Virus record (IMG/VR): IMGVR_UViG_3300048839_001882
Coordinates: 1-37,125 of that record
Length of the DNA stretch: 37,125 bases
Origin: a virus
Strand: one strand, 5' to 3'
Shown: in pieces, positions 3,042-26,500 of the stretch
Numbering within the stretch: position 1 is the first letter of the stretch
How the letters are laid out: each line of letters opens with the position of its first letter
The notes under the pieces: model-generated
The model's input: the letters and a program-made list of their open reading frames with translations, nothing else
Told to the model about the DNA's origin: nothing
The model's database searches: none
Position numbers and translations under genes: made by a program

Positions 3042-3809
3042 CTAGACGGGCCGTTGGCTGGTAATGGCTCTGGATAAGCAGGCCGGGCAGGTGCAGTTGG
3101 TTCGCTTCTTCTGGAGATGGACCAGACCGTGGATGACGGCGTTATTGGTGTCAAAGCGATCTTCGATGCATTGGAAGTAGGTGAGGTCGTCAGCATTGTA
3201 GCGGCGGAAGACGGCATAGGCAATGTGGTCGGCGAGTTGCACGACGCGCGAGGCTTTGCTGTCGACGAATAGTGGCACTTCGCAGATTTCGCGCAGTTCG
3301 TTTCCCCAGCGGTTGCCATCTTTGCGGTATTTTGTTGCCAGGGACTGGAGGCTTGTTTCGTAGGTGCTCTTGTCGAGTACGATAAGGCCTCGTTGGTTGG
3401 CGCTCTTTTCGGCGGTTTTTCGGCGGAGGTAGATGGCGAAGCGGTTACTTATTTCTTCGAAGGCCATTTCTACGGGGTCCTGATCTTTGAAGCTTTGTTT
3501 GTGAACGGCGCAGGCAAAAATGACGATGTCGGCATAGGCGCCATCCAAAGCGCGGAGAACAGTCTTGATGATTTCGATGCGTTGGTTGCGGTCCAGTTGC
3601 TTGGCCCACTCTTGGCGGCCGCCGAAGGTCTCGGAGGCGTGGAGCTCGATGGCGGCGGGATTGGCGGCGGGGAGGGCGAGGGCGACTTGTTCGAGCTGGT
3701 GGGACAGCCAGCGGGTACTTTGCTCGGGGACGCAGACGCCGCCGAGGACAAAGTATTCTTCGCTGACGGTGGAGGCGGAACCGGAGTCGTCGAGGTAGAG
3801 AAGGTACAT
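3042..3809 (-). CDS. DUF3800 protein (RNase H-like fold family)
   Basis: A 255-residue protein that starts MYLLYLDDSGS, the typical DUF3800 opening with an acidic pair. It continues with YFVLGGVCV, FACAVHKQSF, GLIVLDKSTYET and the late family signature SRVVQLADHIAYAVFRRY (residues ~196-213). DUF3800 is thought to have an RNase H-like fold with Asp/Glu residues suited to metal-dependent nuclease chemistry; the activity here is unproven. The C-terminus adds a possible zinc site (CTCPACLS). The start is fixed by the family motif, yet no Shine-Dalgarno lies before it: TATCATTACGCT precedes the ATG. Immediately upstream is a terminator hairpin preceded by a tandem-repeat structured RNA with its own promoter. 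Published RNA surveys describe structured RNA motifs upstream of DUF3800 genes. Confidence 0.85.
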   Translation of the reverse strand: MYLLYLDDSGSASTVSEEYFVLGGVCVPEQSTRWLSHQLEQVALALPAANPAAIELHASETFGGRQEWAKQLDRNQRIEIIKTVLRALDGAYADIVIFACAVHKQSFKDQDPVEMAFEEISNRFAIYLRRKTAEKSANQRGLIVLDKSTYETSLQSLATKYRKDGNRWGNELREICEVPLFVDSKASRVVQLADHIAYAVFRRYNADDLTYFQCIEDRFDTNNAVIHGLVHLQKKRTNCTCPACLSRAITSQRPV

Positions 3810-3820
3810 AGCGTAATGAT

Positions 3821-3859
3821 ATCAAAAGCCCTTGAGTCATCCACTCAAGGGCTCTTGAT
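3821..3859 (-). terminator. Intrinsic terminator between the repeat RNA and DUF3800 gene
   Basis: The 10-bp perfect stem GCCCTTGAGT (3828-3837)/ACTCAAGGGC (3843-3852) has a 5-nt loop and extends to ~17 bp with one mismatch. On the minus strand it ends in CTTTTGATATC, a U-rich tail. It stands 11-12 nt before the DUF3800 start codon, so DUF3800 expression would need readthrough. Confidence 0.75.
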
Positions 3860-3869
3860 TATCGCGATA

Positions 3870-3986
3870 GCTAGCTTAGCCGAATCGGGTGTTCCCGAGC
3901 GAACCGCTGATGCAGCTCTTTCGACCGCTAATTAGCCGAGTGAAACTTTGTTCAGCGAATCGCCTATCTGCGACTCTCTCGACCTG
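3870..3986 (-). ncRNA. Candidate structured tandem-repeat RNA upstream of DUF3800
   Basis: Two tandem units are read on the minus strand: 3984-3927 (58 nt) and 3926-3870 (57 nt). Both begin GGTCGARAGAG, share GCGRTTCGCT and GAACA in the middle, and end TCGGCTAA..TAGC; identity is about two thirds with small gaps. Local stems are visible: TGTTCAG/CTGAACA (3984-3990 with 3949-3955), AGTCGC/GCGATT inside it, and TCGGG-AACA-CCCGA (3885-3898). The transcription start predicted from the promoter falls within a few bases of the first unit, and a terminator follows the second. No open frame of note exists here. It may be one of the DUF3800-associated RNA classes or an antitoxin-like RNA. Confidence 0.55.
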
Positions 3987-3991
3987 AACAC

Positions 3992-4020
3992 AGTATAGTA
4001 GTTTTTGTGGGGCAACTCAA
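3992..4020 (-). promoter_or_regulatory. Sigma70-type promoter of the repeat RNA/DUF3800 operon
   Basis: On the minus strand TTGAGT (4015-4020) and TATACT (3992-3997) are spaced by exactly 17 bp. The predicted start near 3985 coincides with the first base of the tandem repeat. Confidence 0.65.
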
Positions 4021-4069: not shown

Positions 4070-4339
4070 TTACGGGTTGGCGTAGGGGTCGACGGGCGGG
4101 AGAGTGTCGGGCAGGTTGTGGACGCCGATGACGCGGAGGGCGAGGGTGACGCCGGCGGGGTCGCGCTGGTAGGCGGCCGCGAGGGCGTCGAGCATGGCGG
4201 GCGGCGATGCAATCCCCTGAAAACCTCCTGGCGTATCGACGGTGAACCCTAACTTACCGGCCATTTCCTGCAGGGCGGGCAAGCTCTCTCTCTGTATCTT
4301 CGCCGACCATCGATAGTACGTCGTTTTCCGTTTCGCCAT
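4070..4339 (-). CDS. Small putative RHH-like repressor of the divergent control region
   Basis: An 89-residue protein. Its N-terminal part can be read as strand (KTTYYRWSAKI), helix (RESLPALQEMAGKLGF), loop and helix (SPPAMLDALAAAYQRD), the order of a ribbon-helix-helix fold with a longer loop. No family name is certain. The start at 4339 is chosen because AGGGA lies 6 nt upstream and the predicted promoter start is about 12 nt upstream; in-frame ATGs up to 4417 lie inside the promoter and operators. It is the first gene read leftward from a divergent promoter region carrying three palindromes, the classical position of an autoregulated phage repressor. It could instead be an unrelated small protein. 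Confidence 0.6.
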   Translation of the reverse strand: MAKRKTTYYRWSAKIQRESLPALQEMAGKLGFTVDTPGGFQGIASPPAMLDALAAAYQRDPAGVTLALRVIGVHNLPDTLPPVDPYANP

Positions 4340-4357
4340 TTGAGTTCCCTGCCAATC

Positions 4358-4386
4358 AGTATAAGGTGGATGCATACACTCGTCAA
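4358..4386 (-). promoter_or_regulatory. Leftward promoter of the control region
   Basis: On the minus strand TTGACG (4381-4386) and TATACT (4358-4363) are spaced by 17 bp. The spacer contains the palindrome-like site GTGGATGCATACAC (4366-4379). Confidence 0.75.
4366..4379. promoter_or_regulatory. Operator-like palindrome, site 3
   Basis: GTGGATGCATACAC is an imperfect palindrome centred on ATGCAT. It lies in the spacer of the leftward promoter. Its centre is 42 bp from that of site 1, four helical turns. Confidence 0.65.
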
Positions 4387-4401
4387 TCCCCAAATTGGTC
4401 A

Positions 4402-4430
4402 TTGACATTGTATGCATACAAGACTATAAT
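4402..4430 (+). promoter_or_regulatory. Rightward early promoter with perfect consensus hexamers
   Basis: TTGACA (4402-4407), a 17-bp spacer and TATAAT (4425-4430) match the sigma70 consensus exactly. It reads toward the gene at 4515 and the early operon. A palindrome fills the spacer and a second covers the start region, so it should be strong but tightly repressed. Confidence 0.9.
4408..4421. promoter_or_regulatory. Operator-like palindrome, site 1
   Basis: TTGTATGCATACAA is a perfect 14-bp palindrome between the -35 and -10 of the rightward promoter. Confidence 0.8.
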
Positions 4431-4441
4431 GTATGCATACA
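4430..4441. promoter_or_regulatory. Operator-like palindrome, site 2
   Basis: TGTATGCATACA is a perfect 12-bp palindrome overlapping the end of the -10 box and the expected start. Its centre is exactly 21 bp (two helical turns) from site 1. Confidence 0.8.
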
Positions 4442-4447
4442 ACAGCA

Positions 4448-4486
4448 GAGCGCCCCGACCGGCCTGAGAAACTAGACGGGGCGCTC
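4448..4486 (+). promoter_or_regulatory. Leader hairpin of the early transcript
   Basis: A perfect 10-bp stem GAGCGCCCCG (4448-4457)/CGGGGCGCTC (4477-4486) with a 19-nt loop starts about 11 nt into the predicted early transcript and ends 15 nt before the ribosome site GGAGG. No U tract follows, so it is more likely a stabiliser or protein or antiterminator target than a terminator. Confidence 0.55.
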
Positions 4487-4514: not shown

Positions 4515-4802
4515 ATGTCTACTGTAGTTGAATCCCCTTCTTCTGACAAGAAAAATCCACATTGGAATAACCAGGTGAAGATCGGCCGCGGCCGCACGGA
4601 CGCCGGGGCGTTTCACCGGGCGATTGCTGTCGCTGTGGAGCTGTTCCGGACGGGCGCCTGGGACGGCCGGGGGCTGCTGGTCGTCCATGATGCCTATGAG
4701 ACGCATCTCAAGATGAGCTTCTATCGGGAGTCCCTGGTGGAGGGTGTGGACTTCGAGTTGGCGAGTGATTCGGTCTATACGCGGGCTGGGGAGGCATCAT
4801 GA
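4515..4802 (+). CDS. Unknown early phage protein, first gene of rightward operon
   Basis: A 95-residue soluble protein. Residues 1-20 are polar; the core contains GAFHRAIAVAVELFRTGAW, LLVVHDAYETHLKMSFYRE and FELASDSVYT. I recognise no family. GGAGG (4502-4506) with 8-nt spacing sets the ATG at 4515; the GTG at 4506 overlaps the ribosome site. Its stop overlaps the next start (ATGA at 4799). As the promoter-proximal gene it should be expressed immediately after derepression, a position often used for host-takeover or anti-defence proteins, but that is only positional reasoning. Confidence 0.65.
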   Translation: MSTVVESPSSDKKNPHWNNQVKIGRGRTDAGAFHRAIAVAVELFRTGAWDGRGLLVVHDAYETHLKMSFYRESLVEGVDFELASDSVYTRAGEAS

Positions 4803-5620
4803 ACTACCAGGGGACGGAGATGGTCTACATTTACGCGCCTGATCCGCAGAATCCCAGCCGCCTGGAGGGTGGCAGCGGGAAGCGGATGTGGACGTATGTG
4901 GACGGTGTGGACGAGGACGGACGGCCGCGGCTAGTGGCGAAGTATGGCCAGGCGTATGTGCCGGTGCAGCGGCGGGCGGGGCAGTTGTCCATTGTCGTGG
5001 GTCGGGAGCCGGTTCGAGCGGCGAGTGACGAGCGGCGAGTGACGAATGAAGGTGGGGAGGCGACGAACGACGAGAGACGAGGGACGAGTGGGGAGAAGCG
5101 GCCGCGGCCGGAGTCGGTGGCGGCGGCGGTGGCGGAGATGGTGGAGATAGGGAAGGCGTGGCGGCCGAAGATGGGTATGCGGCTGGACTCGGCGGCGGAG
5201 CTGGTGCTGTTGGGGAAGGTGCGGTTGCTCGACCCGGAGACGGCGAAGGTGGGTGTCTATGAGGTGACGGCGGAGAGCTGTAAGTGCATGGACTTTGGGT
5301 ATCGGGGCGGCTGGTGCAAGCATCGGCTGGCGGTGCGGATGGCGCGGCATTTGGCGGCACATGGGTTTGAGGTGCCGACGGAAGAAGCGACGGGCGCCGA
5401 GCCACGAGCGACGACGCCGCAGATCTCGGCGGCGAATCTGGCGCTGATTGCCAGTGGGGCGGTGATTGACGAGGAGCGGCGGTCGCAGCGGGCGTATCTT
5501 CAGAGTGAGCACGGGGCACGGACGGCCGTGGTGCGGATGTTGGGCAACGGGGCGAAATCGGTTCCGGCGGGGTTGGCCCAGCGGGCGGGGATGGGAAGTC
5601 AAATGACGAACGACGAATGA
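4799..5620 (+). CDS. SWIM zinc-finger protein with in-frame repeat insertion
   Basis: A 273-residue protein. The SWIM-type metal site CxC-x9-CxH is visible as Cys161, Cys163, Cys173 and His175 in ESCKCMDFGYRGGWCKHRL. SWIM fingers bind DNA or protein and occur in recombination mediators and mobile-element proteins. An N-terminal domain (residues 1-70) contains YIYAPDPQNPSRLEGGSGKR and is unassigned. Residues ~76-100 (DERRVTNE, TNDERR) are the translation of a GACGAATGACGAA-type iterated repeat that also occurs between genes and in the gene at 6240, so this segment is probably a dispensable linker. The last residues (MTNDE) come from another copy. Role: probably DNA metabolism; low certainty. 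Confidence 0.7.
   Translation: MNYQGTEMVYIYAPDPQNPSRLEGGSGKRMWTYVDGVDEDGRPRLVAKYGQAYVPVQRRAGQLSIVVGREPVRAASDERRVTNEGGEATNDERRGTSGEKRPRPESVAAAVAEMVEIGKAWRPKMGMRLDSAAELVLLGKVRLLDPETAKVGVYEVTAESCKCMDFGYRGGWCKHRLAVRMARHLAAHGFEVPTEEATGAEPRATTPQISAANLALIASGAVIDEERRSQRAYLQSEHGARTAVVRMLGNGAKSVPAGLAQRAGMGSQMTNDE
5019..5098 (+). repeat. Iterated GACGARTGACGA-type repeat, copy 1 (inside coding sequence)
   Basis: A degenerate run of GAGTGACGAGCGGCGAGTG, GACGAATGAA and GACGAACGACGAGAGACGAG words. It preserves the reading frame of the SWIM-finger gene. Confidence 0.7.
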
Positions 5621-10303: not shown

Positions 10304-11039
10304 GCAACGGGTACAGGCGGAGATCGCTCGTCTGGGCGAGCCGGAGTTTCCCATGGGGCGGGCGGCACGCCGACAGCGAACGGCAACGATTCGGGCGCTG
10401 GCGGAGGCGACGATGGCCGGCGTGGCCTGGACGGGCGAGAACGGGGTGCTGGGCTCCAAGCGCGATCGGCTAATAGTGAGTGAGAATACCTTCTATAGCA
10501 AGCCGTATTGGTACGCGAACCCGCTAACGCGAGAGGTAATTGAGAACGTCACGAATTTGTATCTGATGCGGGAGGCGGAAGAGAAGGAACGGGCCAGGCA
10601 GGAAAAGCGGGTCTGGTTGGAGAATAAGGAACTGGAGGCGGCCGAGAAACAGTTCAGTAAGGCTGATGATTTGCTGTCGCTACCGCACATTACCAAGAAA
10701 ACGAAGTCAGTGGATGGGGAGACGACCATCATTCTCGATCCGGCCAACGCGGCCATTTTCAACGCGGCCGTTAACCTGAACCTGAAGGGCAGTGACCTGG
10801 CGCGGCGGTCGCTGGCCTTGCCGACAGAGGTCAAGCGGTCGGAGTTAACCGGGGCGGAAGGCGGGGCGATTGCGCTGAGAAATGATGGGTTGGAAGAGGT
10901 AAGTGATGAGGAGCTACAACGCCGAATTGCCGCCCTCGCTGCCGGAGCGCTTGCGGCCGTCGGCGAGGGATACGCTGGTGAGTCAGTGGCGGGCGATGAG
11001 GCAGGGGCTACGGGCAACGATCCAGCGGGCGAGGTATAG
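10290..11039 (+). CDS. terS: Probable small terminase subunit
   Basis: A 249-residue protein placed directly before the large terminase. The N-terminus (FEQRVQAEIARL; RAARRQRTATIRALAEATM) is helical and basic and could be the DNA-recognition part. The middle is a charged coiled-coil-like helix (MREAEEKERARQEKRVWLEN), and the C-terminal 40 residues are Ala/Gly-rich. The assignment rests on position and general architecture, not on a clear motif. Its last 134 nt overlap the start of the large terminase gene in another frame, which is long for phage genes. Confidence 0.5.
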   Translation: MDNFEQRVQAEIARLGEPEFPMGRAARRQRTATIRALAEATMAGVAWTGENGVLGSKRDRLIVSENTFYSKPYWYANPLTREVIENVTNLYLMREAEEKERARQEKRVWLENKELEAAEKQFSKADDLLSLPHITKKTKSVDGETTIILDPANAAIFNAAVNLNLKGSDLARRSLALPTEVKRSELTGAEGGAIALRNDGLEEVSDEELQRRIAALAAGALAAVGEGYAGESVAGDEAGATGNDPAGEV

Positions 11040-11817
11040 GGGTATTGTGACGCCGGAGGTGGTGGCTGCGTTTGCGATGCTGCATATGCAGACAGATGAT
11101 GGGCTGCCGATTGCGCCGGCGGCGCATCATTGGCTGTGGTTGCAGCTTGTTTGTGATGTGGACATCAAGCGGCTGCTGATTGTGGCCACGCCGGAGAGCG
11201 CGAAGACAACGTGGATGATGGCGTATGCGGCGTGCCTGGTGGGGTTTCACCCAGAGTGGCCGGGAATTATCGCGGCGGTGAGCGGGCCGGTGGCAGAGAA
11301 GCGGAGTCTGTCGCTGCGGAACCTAGTGGAGTCGGCCGAGTTTGCGGAGACGTTCCCGGCCGTTCGGCCGGCAGCGGGCATGTCGTGGCGGGCACATGAG
11401 TGGAGTGTGGCGGAGGATGGACGGCCGCATGCGGGGCGGTTGCATCCGACGGTTTCTGCGTACGGTACGGGCGGTAGCATCACCGGCTCGCGGGCGCGGT
11501 GGCTGATCGCCGACGATATTCTGGATTACGACAACACCCGGACGCAGCATCAGCGGGATTTGGTGGACGCGTGGTTGCATACGTCGTTGCTGTCACGGGT
11601 GACGGCCGAGACGGGCATCGTCAGGATGATCGGGAATGCGTGGCATCATGATGACAGCCACGCTCGGTTGAGGCGCAGCGAGGGGTGGGTGATTTGCCAT
11701 ATCCCGCTGCTGAGCGACGGGCGTGAGGTGGCGGCGACGATCACGTATCCGGATGACTTTCGCGGCCGTCGGCTGGGGCAGCCAGTAGGGGCAGCGGGTA
11801 TCGGGACAGCAGGTTAG
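10906..11817 (+). CDS. terL: Large terminase, ATPase half (split TerL)
   Basis: A 303-residue protein carrying the packaging-motor ATPase. The Walker A-like LLIVATPESAKTTW lies at residues ~91-104, Walker B RWLIADDILDYD at ~199-210, and the coupling motif MIGNAWHHDD follows. These match TerL proteins of siphophages. The chain stops (TAG 11815-11817) just after the ATPase domain, and the nuclease half begins 2 nt later in another frame. The ATG at 10906 follows GAGG with 6-nt spacing; a GTG is at 10903. Either the motor is truly two-chain or a frameshift joins the halves. Confidence 0.88.
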   Translation: MRSYNAELPPSLPERLRPSARDTLVSQWRAMRQGLRATIQRARYRGIVTPEVVAAFAMLHMQTDDGLPIAPAAHHWLWLQLVCDVDIKRLLIVATPESAKTTWMMAYAACLVGFHPEWPGIIAAVSGPVAEKRSLSLRNLVESAEFAETFPAVRPAAGMSWRAHEWSVAEDGRPHAGRLHPTVSAYGTGGSITGSRARWLIADDILDYDNTRTQHQRDLVDAWLHTSLLSRVTAETGIVRMIGNAWHHDDSHARLRRSEGWVICHIPLLSDGREVAATITYPDDFRGRRLGQPVGAAGIGTAG

Positions 11818-11819
11818 CA

Positions 11820-12575
11820 ATGCAAACGTATCATTACACCGTTCATCGGAATGGCCCGGCTCTATGGCCGGAGCATAAGAGTCTTACAGAGATTCTTAAG
11901 CTCCAGGCGACAACGCCCAGCTTGATCTGGGAAGGTACGTATCAGGGCAATCCGACGCCGGCCGGTGGGTATGTATTTCGGCGGAAGTTCTGGAACGGGA
12001 AGAACCGATACGCGGCCGATGGGCATGATTTGCGCGGGTTGGTCGTGGCGCGTTTTCAAAGCTGGGATACTGCGGAAGAAGTGGGCGAATCCAATGCCTG
12101 GACGGCTTGCGTGACCGGGGAGATTATGCGGGATTACCGACTGGCGATCCGGCATATGTATCGGGCGCGGCTGACATTCGATGCGCTTCCGGCGACGATT
12201 GAGAGCCAGGCGCGGCAGTGGAATGGGGACGGATTGTTGCATGGGGTGGTGATTGAGGACAAGAGCAGCGGCAAGAGCGCGCAGCAGACGTTGCGAGTGA
12301 CGGCGCCGGAGTGGTTGCGGCCGTTGATCTCGCCTTACCGGCCGGTGGGCAGCAAGGAGGCGCGGGCCGGGGCGGCGGCGGTATGGTGTCGGAATGATAT
12401 GGTGTGGTTGCCGCATCCGGGGAATGAGGTTGGCTGGCTGATTGACTTCGAGGACGAGTTATTCACGTTTCCGCAGGGGGCGTTTGCGGACCAGGTGGAT
12501 GCGTTTTCGCAGTTGGTATTGTATAGCGAGAATTATTTGAGCGCCGGTTGGGAGGCGAAGGAAGGGAGAGGGTGA
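11820..12575 (+). CDS. terL: Large terminase, nuclease half (split TerL)
   Basis: A 251-residue protein. It begins with the segment that normally links ATPase and nuclease (ALWPEHKSLTEILKLQ, YQGNPTPAGG). It then carries the RNase H-like nuclease residues: Asp83 in FQSWDTAEE, Glu146-Asp147 in VVIEDKSSGKS, and Asp224/Asp227 in FADQVDAFSQ. Both halves keep all expected catalytic residues, so neither looks decayed. The start is TAGCAATG, with AGG 6 nt upstream, suitable for termination-reinitiation. The stop overlaps the portal GTG start (GTGA). Confidence 0.88.
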   Translation: MQTYHYTVHRNGPALWPEHKSLTEILKLQATTPSLIWEGTYQGNPTPAGGYVFRRKFWNGKNRYAADGHDLRGLVVARFQSWDTAEEVGESNAWTACVTGEIMRDYRLAIRHMYRARLTFDALPATIESQARQWNGDGLLHGVVIEDKSSGKSAQQTLRVTAPEWLRPLISPYRPVGSKEARAGAAAVWCRNDMVWLPHPGNEVGWLIDFEDELFTFPQGAFADQVDAFSQLVLYSENYLSAGWEAKEGRG

Positions 12576-16555: not shown

Positions 16556-16584
16556 TTGACATAGAACAATAGAGCTAATATACT
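16556..16584 (+). promoter_or_regulatory. Strong promoter ahead of the capsid operon
   Basis: TTGACA (16556-16561), 17 bp, TATACT (16579-16584). A second TTGACA lies 12 bp upstream (16544-16549) without a matching -10. The expected start near 16591 is followed by a terminator within ~70 nt. Confidence 0.8.
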
Positions 16585-16622
16585 ACGGGTAATCGAATAC
16601 GAAATTGGCACACTCGCCTACG

Positions 16623-16662
16623 AGCAGCCGTCACCCACGATAAGGTGATTGGCTGCTTTTTT
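16623..16662 (+). terminator. Intrinsic terminator in the capsid-operon leader
   Basis: AGCAGCC (16623-16629)/GGCTGCT (16651-16657) with an inner TCACC/GGTGA stem is followed by TTTTTT and then TTTT. A transcript from 16591 would be cut to ~70 nt unless antiterminated. Confidence 0.85.
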
Positions 16663-16716
16663 GTTTTCTCCCCTCACTGCGACGGCAGGTTAAACACGGT
16701 AATCACGGAGAATGGT

Positions 16717-23414: not shown

Positions 23415-23506
23415 GCCGGGGGACACGGCTTAGGCCGGAGGACACGGCTTAGGCCGGAGGACACGGCTTAGGCCGGAGGACACGGCTTGAGCCGGAGGAC
23501 GCAGAG
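23415..23506 (+). repeat. Tandem 19-bp repeat array with GGAGG in hairpin loops
   Basis: Four 19-bp units GCCGGAGGACACGGCTTAG (23415, 23434, 23453, 23472; the first has GGGGG, the fourth ends TGA) and a partial fifth (23491). Each unit can pair GCCG with CGGC, presenting GGAGGAC in the loop. The array fills the whole gap between the chaperone stop and the tape-measure start; no other element is seen. Confidence 0.85.
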
Positions 23507-23514
23507 AGACCACC

Positions 23515-26500
23515 GTGGAAATCGCCAAGCTGTACATCACACTGGCGGCCGATGCCGATCAGTACAAGGGGCAATTGCAGCAGGTCGACCGGGAGACGAT
23601 GAGCTGGGCCGGCGATTTGGCCGGGCGCATGTCGAAGCTGGTCGGCGCGGCGGTGCTGGCGGCCGTGGCGGCTATGGGGGTGGCGCTGGGGGCGTTCTTT
23701 AAGGACTCGATCAGCAAGGCGGCCGATCTGGAAGCGCAGATGGATACTGTGGCGGCGTTGCTGGGGGCAACGGCCGAACAAGCCGAGTTACTGCGGCAGG
23801 CGACTATTGATCTGGCGTTGGACCCGAACCTAAAGGTGAGCGCAACCGAGGCGGCGCAGGCGATTGAGATGCTGGCCCAGAACGGGTTGACCGTCGAGGA
23901 GATTCTGGGCGGGGCGGCTCGGGCTACGGTGCTGCTGGCCAACGCGACGGGGGCGGACTTCAGCACGGCGGCGCGGATTGCGACGGACGCGATGGCGCTG
24001 TGGGGGATGGAAGCCGGCGACCTGGAGCAGGTGGCCAACGGCGTGACGGCAGTGCTGGTGCAATCGAAGTTTGAGGTCAACGACTATGCGCTGGCGCTGG
24101 CGCAGGCAGGCGGCGTGGCGTCGGCTGTAGGGGTGTCGTTCGAGGATTTCAACGCCACGCTGGTGGCGATTGCCCCGTTTTTTGCCAGCGGCTCAGACGC
24201 GGGCACGTCGTACAAGACGATGCTGCAGCGGCTGATCCCGACGACGAGCGACGCAAAAGATGCGATGGCGGACCTGGGGCTGATTACGGCCGACGGGGCA
24301 AATGCGTTCTTTGATTCCGAGGGCAACATGCGCTCGATGGCCGAGGTGGCGGGGCTGCTAAATGGAGCGTTAGGCGGGCTATCGGAGGAGCAGCGATTAC
24401 AGGCGCTCTCGACCATCTTTGGGACGGACGCGATGCGGGCGGCCGTGGCGATGTCGCAGTTTACGAAGGAAGAGTTCGAGCGGTTGCAGGCGGTGATGGC
24501 CAACACGGACGCGGCCGAAATCGCGGCGCAGCGGATGCAGAACTTCACCGGAGCGATGGAGATCTTCAAGGGCGTGGTGGAAGGGTTGCAGTTGCAGCTG
24601 GGGAATGTACTGCTGCCGATCCTGACGAAGCTCGCGCTGGAGGGGGCGAATCTGCTGGCGGCGTGGGGGCCGCCGATCATCGAGGCGTTTCAGGCGTTCT
24701 TCAACAATCTGGGGGAGGGGATGTCGGTGATGGACGCCTTTATTGAGGCGATCGACGGCCTGGTTCCGGAATCGGTGGTGCGGGCGCTGGTGGTGTTCAG
24801 GGACAGTATTTTGCCGGTGGTGGAGCGGGTGGCGGAGGCGATCGCCTCGTTTGTGTCGTGGAAGGATGTGTTGCTGGCGCTGGCCGTGGTGGTGGGGGGA
24901 TTTGCGGCGTCGTTCTTGCTGCCGTTGCTGGCTCCGATTGCGGCGCTGGCGGCGGCCGTGGCGGGGCTGACGCTGGTGTTTGCGGCGGTACGGACGGCGT
25001 TTGAGACCAATTTTCTGGGCATTCGTGATTTGGCTTTGGGCGTATGGGCGGCGCTGCAAAGCGTGTTTGACGGGATCAAGGCGCTGCTCACGGGGGATAC
25101 AACGGCGGCGATGGCGGCGTTCCGGGCGGCGTGGGAGACGGGCTGGGCGGCTGTGGTGGGGTTCATCCAGAATGCCGGGGCGCAGATCGGGCAGGTGTTG
25201 GCCGGGCTGTGGCAGAGTATTGTGACCTGGTTCCAGGGGATCGATTGGGCGGCGCTGGGGCAATCGCTCATCGAGCGGTTTTTTGCGGGGATGGCGGCGT
25301 TGGGGCAGGCGGCGGCCGGGGCGTGGGAGTGGGTGCTGACCAGCCTGACCAGCTTCATCAATACGGTGAATTGGGGGCAGCTTGGCTATACGCTGATTGA
25401 TCTGTTCATCAAGGGCATTATCGGAGCGGTGGGGCTCATTGGGACGGCGCTGGCGGGCATTGTCACCTACATCTGGAACTTCATCACCGGGACCAACTGG
25501 ATTGAGTTGGGCGTCAATCTGGTCACGGCCATGGTGCAAGGGCTGTCTTCGTTTGCCCAGGGCGCGGCCGCGGCGCTGGCTGATTGGCGGCAGGTAATCT
25601 TCGACTGGGCCGGGGCTGAGGATTGGGGTGACGTCGGCGAAAAGGTGGCGGAGTTGGTGGGCGACGCCCTGGGTGCAGCAAAAGACTATGTCGCAGGAAA
25701 GCTAGACGAGTGGCAAACGGCGATATTCGACTGGGTCGGAGCTGAGGACTGGGAAGGCGTGGCGGAGCATATCGCCGAGGAGGTTGGCGAGAAGCTTGGT
25801 GAGGCAAAGGACGCTGTTGCCGCGCAGCTGAGCGAGTGGCAGACGGCCATCTTCGATTGGGCAGACGCAGAAGATTGGCAAGGGGTGGCAAAGTATATTG
25901 CCGACGAGGTCGGTACGAAGCTGGGCGAAGCGAAAGATGCAGTCTCGGCGCAACTCTCCGAATGGCAGACGGCGATCTTTGATTGGGCGGATGCGGAGGA
26001 TTGGGAAGGCGTCGCCCAGGCTGTGGCCGACGAGGTCGGTGCGAAACTTGGGGAAGCCAAGGACGCGGTGGCGGCGCAGTTGAGTGAGTGGGAGACAGCG
26101 GTATTTGACTGGGCCGGGGTTGAGGATTGGAGCGGCGTGGCGGACAAGGTGGCCACGATGGTGGGCGAGGCGCTGGGAACGGCGGCCGGTAGTGTGACCT
26201 CGACCCTGGATAGCTGGGAGCAGGCGATCTTCGACTGGGCAGACGCAGAAGATTGGGTTGGCGTCTCGGAGACCATCGCTGTGGCCGTAGGCGAGTCGTT
26301 AGCGACGGCGAGTGACAAGGTTACGGAGAAGCTGAGCGGTTGGATTACGGCTTTCACTGCTTGGGTAGGCACAGTGGATTGGTACCAAGTCGGCTATGAC
26401 ATCATGTTCAAGATCACTGATGCGTTTCTGGATTTCAAGGAGGCGATCAACGAGAAGATCAGCGCGTGGCTGACGGACACGCAGTCGGCGACTGAAGGGT

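Follow-up and report, generated by a model that had tools for sequence, protein, structure and literature searches.

A putative repressor switch with three operator-like palindromes in a tailed, probably temperate phage, and its counterpart in a sister phage

The DNA analysed here, called the window, is the whole stretch of 37,125 nucleotides from the virus record IMGVR_UViG_3300048839_001882. Two divergent promoters lie at 4340-4450, flanked by a leftward gene for an 89-aa protein, P0001, and by the first genes of a long rightward operon, which comprises early genes, methyltransferases, terminase, head and tail. Two DNA methyltransferases, one of them fused to a ParB-like domain, and the terminase, head-morphogenesis, scaffold, major head and tape-measure proteins are all encoded on the (+) strand. 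Since the large rightward genes of the window are all downstream of the early promoter, the switch precedes the lytic genes. A relative (IMGVR_UViG_3300048592_000897, 48,859 bp; G006 below) was reached via major head protein relatives in viral contigs, and its head protein is 87% identical to that of the window. A search of 50,697 deposited phage records revealed no close relative of this phage group, with terminase identity at most 30% among the matches listed. The features discussed below are:

1-207, (-): clear ribbon-helix-helix (RHH) gene, Arc-like and with an RHH_5 match (protein at 1-204), placed at the extreme left of the record and preceded by a TTGACT-18-TATAAT promoter of its own
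4070..4339, (-): P0001, 89 aa, putative autoregulated repressor; an open reading frame with a 51%-identical homologue in G006
4358..4386, (-): repressor promoter; -35 box TTGACG at 4386-4381, 17-bp spacer, -10 box TATACT at 4363-4358
4367..4378, no strand: putative operator copy in the repressor-promoter spacer, TGGATGCATACA, one mismatch, the weakest copy
4402..4430, (+): early promoter; -35 box TTGACA at 4402-4407, 17-bp spacer, -10 box TATAAT at 4425-4430
4409..4420, no strand: putative operator copy in the early-promoter spacer, TGTATGCATACA, a perfect palindrome
4430..4441, no strand: putative operator copy over the early start (about -7 to +5), TGTATGCATACA, a perfect palindrome
4448..4486, (+): leader hairpin; 10-bp stem GAGCGCCCCG/CGGGGCGCTC, 19-nt loop
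4515..4802, (+): P0002, 95 aa, first gene of the early operon; no counterpart kept in G006
4799..5620, (+): second early gene, SWIM zinc-finger-like, below the Pfam cut-off; 51% identical in G006

Both promoters are present as an earlier note on this DNA had described them, with 12/12 consensus positions matched by the rightward and 10/12 by the leftward promoter, and 15 bp separate their -35 boxes. The note had also placed a TGTATGCATACA-type palindrome in each spacer and a third at the rightward start. Its centres (4372.5, 4414.5 and 4435.5) and gaps of 42 and 21 bp were reproduced exactly, and all three sites are there, but the copy in the leftward spacer deviates from the perfect word. Copies with at most one mismatch are confined to one 75-bp stretch of the 37,125-bp record, where these three are the only ones. 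In 60 whole-window shuffles that preserved dinucleotides, three similar 12-bp near-palindromes never fell within one 120-bp stretch, and local shuffles of the 111-bp region never gave an equally good three-copy family of 12-mers (0/400). A loose whole-window search allowing three mismatches showed no excess (9 found against 6.8 expected), so that the signal consists in the tight cluster. The three-palindrome divergent arrangement is real and probably functional.

The sister phage G006 encodes a homologue of P0001, placed divergently in the same manner, next to divergent promoters (TTGACA-16-TATAAT and TTGACG-18-TATCCT) whose -35 boxes are 7 bp apart. Upstream of the homologue stand three repeats, spaced 22 and 33 bp: TATGTACCTAC at the early start, TATGTACCTAC within the early spacer and TATGTACCGTC within the spacer of the repressor promoter. 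These positions match those of the three window sites. The repressor's own promoter has the weakest copy in either phage (TATGTACCGTC in G006). With the start taken 7 nt past the -10 box, the site centres fall at about -2 and -22 of the early promoter and -21 of the repressor promoter in the window, and at +1, -21 and -23 in G006, a difference of 1-3 bp between the two phages. Local shuffles of the G006 stretch yielded no triple as good (0/400).

The word itself is another matter. The note had suggested looking for the same palindrome near homologues; G006 has no TGTATGCATACA-like site (at most one mismatch) and carries TATGTACCTAC-type repeats instead. The layout has been kept while the operator word changed between the sister phages. 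The dyad of the G006 sites, GTATGTACCTAC, is imperfect and exceeds the window core by two bases, and the half-site geometry is consequently not simply the same. A search of viral contigs for the spaced palindrome pair found none, which is what a phage-specific word would predict. As to the note's further claim that all sites lie on one face of the helix, the window fits exactly, with 2.0 and 4.0 turns, and G006 approximately, with 2.1 and 3.1 turns; given this less exact phasing, co-operation of bound dimers is no more than suggested. The first early genes of the two phages cannot be aligned and the SWIM-like second gene is kept; because the first early gene is not conserved, the repressor gene and its operators appear as the constant unit. 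With a single homologue found, this conservation rests on two phages.

P0001 is encoded by a real open reading frame, with an ATG start, an AGGGA ribosome site and the homologue in another phage. Its pI is 9.2, and the net charge of its first 17 residues is +6. Sequence searches of Pfam, PHROGs, NCBIfam and PDB with P0001 gave no convincing match, and neither P0001 nor its homologue matched an RHH or an HTH family in Pfam, PHROGs or NCBIfam at E<=1. Searches with P0001 of viral contigs and of genome contigs returned nothing significant, searches of contigs with the two-sequence alignment found G006 again as the sole match in one set and none in the other, and tblastn of both proteins against phages and plasmids was likewise without significant result.

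The same note had cast P0001 as an RHH-like protein in a compact lysogeny switch. The divergent repressor switch is strongly supported, with the layout of G006 behind it; the RHH assignment is not established. Besides the family and PDB sequence searches, a profile comparison of P0001 with the two RHH proteins of the window phage and G006 gave a probability of 0.5%. The AlphaFold monomer from the two-sequence alignment is of low confidence (mean pLDDT 55.7), with the element order E9-15, H17-30, E39-42, H46-59, E64-72; the homologue's model (pLDDT 48.6) has the same order. Fold searches with these models gave middling ferredoxin-like matches, none at E<=0.001, and the matches listed contained no RHH chain. 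A PII/ferredoxin-like fold was not adopted for P0001, as the models are too poor and this arrangement was taken to be a default low-confidence one. Residues 9-16 alternate between hydrophobic and polar or basic (YRWSAKIQ in P0001, YAYKVRIH in the homologue), and a stretch of about 15 residues separates the two predicted helices of P0001. The alternating basic/hydrophobic strand and the modelled order strand-helix-(insert)-helix would be compatible with an RHH fold without demonstrating it, and we put the chances of such a fold as about even. P0001 probably represents an orphan repressor family within an ordinary kind of switch.

The early transcript begins with a hairpin in both phages. In G006 the counterpart stem, GAGCCGCCGG/CCGGCGGCTC, is also of 10 bp and encloses an 18-nt loop, and in both cases the GC-rich stem begins a few bases past the early start. 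Three of the ten stem pairs are changed on both sides between the phages, which is compensatory, none is broken, and the loops are similar; the leader folds beat shuffles in both phages (z -3.2 and -3.7). The shared loop motif was found nowhere else in the relatives examined. An intrinsic terminator was ruled out, there being no U-run after the stem, and an Rfam PtaRNA1 match on the minus strand of the leader was put down to chance (21 bits against a cut-off of 47). The hairpin may serve in protection of the mRNA end or in antitermination.

The left arm bears on the question of lysogeny. In G006, a tyrosine integrase (PF00589, 97.5 bits) is encoded about 6 kb past the repressor gene; an RHH gene adjoins it and separates it from the rest of the arm. 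No integrase was found in the 37,125-bp window record, whose end coincides with the stop codon of its own RHH gene, which occupies the corresponding arm; as the record begins there, the integrase of the complete phage would fall just outside. A temperate life of the window phage is likely, judging from G006. In G006 the RHH gene (L013 10818-11078) has CTAGTATA repeats within its own promoter spacer and thus the look of an operator in a spacer. A stretch beside the G006 integrase that resembles a tRNA 3' half (L013 11208-11267) was considered as attP and dropped, as nothing rose above any cut-off.

Several other features of the record deserve mention in their own right. Two tandem Rfam DUF3800-VI RNAs (RF02915; 47.1 and 46.3 bits) lie at window 3877-3985 (-), flanked by a promoter-like sequence (3992-4020) and a terminator (3827-3853), with a DUF3800 gene (3042-3809; PF12686, 59 bits) directly downstream. 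Type III toxin-antitoxin loci are laid out as tandem RNA, terminator and protein gene, and the window arrangement resembles this layout; G006 carries the RF02915 pair (L013 6643-6752), and the DUF3800 gene is absent from its record. At 16556-16665 (+), just ahead of the scaffold and head genes, a strong promoter (TTGACA-17-TATACT) is followed about 75 bp on by a hairpin that, with its T run, looks like a terminator; the segment is 75-82% identical in two relatives and may encode a small RNA or act as a terminator in the leader. At 23426-23494 (+), between the preceding gene and the start of the tape-measure gene at 23515, a 19-bp unit is repeated four times in tandem, and every unit contains the near-palindrome CGGCTTAGGCCG (CGGCTTGAGCCG in the last). 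The large terminase subunit is split into adjacent reading frames (10903-11817 and 11820-12575, (+), in different frames) that match consecutive parts of one PHROG; a natural split, a frameshift and an assembly error are all candidates.

Taken as a whole, the locus is likely to be a repressor switch, and the phage a tailed and probably temperate one; P0001 would bind the palindromes, silence the rightward operon and regulate its own synthesis. Divergent repressor and early promoters with shared operator-like sites are present in both the window and G006. P0001, the putative binder, would occupy the three 12-bp palindromes in dimeric or higher oligomeric form. Bound to both perfect copies, one within the early spacer and one over the early start, it would exclude RNA polymerase from the rightward promoter; the operon would then be silent and the prophage quiet, which would give the switch its role in lysogeny. 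The weaker copy in its own promoter would presumably be filled later, at a higher level of P0001, resulting in negative autoregulation. The bound dimers could sit on one face of the helix and perhaps co-operate.

Known systems offer partial models. Lambda OR has three operators between back-to-back promoters, of which OR3 is the weakest for CI and lies in CI's own promoter. The window switch is similar in the number of sites, the back-to-back promoters and the position of the weakest copy; in contrast to lambda, P0001 matched no HTH CI/Cro protein in any search, no Cro-like partner was recognised, and the operators are set within the promoter spacers and at the start site, at 2- and 4-turn spacing. 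In the immI region of P22, Arc and Mnt are small repressors with divergent promoters, promoter-overlapping operators and autoregulation. Each of these traits recurs here, in the case of autoregulation as a proposal, whereas P0001 has no detectable RHH signature and about 15 residues between its predicted helices, the two promoters share three near-identical 12-bp palindromes, and one small regulator takes the place of two facing ones. The switch would work like those of lambda and P22, and with no HTH or RHH signature its membership in either type is not demonstrated. AmrZ is a small protein that represses its own promoter via more than one site (PMC3325190), as is proposed for P0001. The RHH fold is demonstrated for AmrZ, however, and AmrZ is cellular, whereas P0001 belongs to a divergent phage switch.

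It is unlikely, but deserves weighing, that P0001 binds these sites as a Cro/Arc-like early regulator or a local autoregulator, with the task of adjusting early transcription in the lytic cycle, and that the immunity repressor is encoded elsewhere, for example by the RHH gene at 1-207. That gene is a genuine RHH_5/Arc-like one, at the far left end of the window, and P22 sets a precedent in using Arc as well as Mnt, both RHH repressors with a role in lysogeny (PMC10516654); a window record without an integrase also favours an early regulator. Yet none of the three palindromes occurs upstream of the 1-207 gene (at most one mismatch), and no other divergent gene adjoins the strongest promoter pair than that of P0001, which, like immunity repressors, is read away from the lytic operon.

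We regard it as very improbable that a host regulator or another phage protein binds the palindromes and that P0001 is a mere neighbour. Such a reading draws on the lack of family or fold support for DNA binding by P0001, whose models are of low confidence. Against it, the homologue and the operators persist jointly in G006 while the other neighbouring gene changes, and the operator word varies along with the P0001 sequence, unlike a common host-factor site. A word that differs between phages is what would be expected of a phage-specific repressor and not of a shared host factor; the changed word is thus an argument, though not proof, against a host factor as binder. Finally, that the palindromes cluster by chance and lack regulatory meaning, as the loose count might suggest, is refuted in practice by the conserved layout, given that the close-copy triple is unequalled in shuffles and that the layout recurs in G006 independently of the word.

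On the preferred reading of P0001 as the repressor of this switch, a bolder proposal is possible, although we lean against it: P0001 may found a new phage repressor family, with either a new fold or an RHH fold with a long inter-helix insertion, whose operator word was switched between sister phages. If so, the passage from the 10-bp core GTATGCATAC to the 12-bp GTATGTACCTAC, with site number, promoter register and relative strength kept, would be a natural change of immunity specificity. The useful part of the finding is this natural change of operator word under a fixed architecture: a candidate repressor-operator pair together with a naturally occurring variant of its specificity, from phages for which no close deposited relative was found. 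Comparison of the two pairs would reveal which residues of a P0001-type protein set the operator word, and would also show whether immunity here works without a CI/Cro or a recognised RHH protein.
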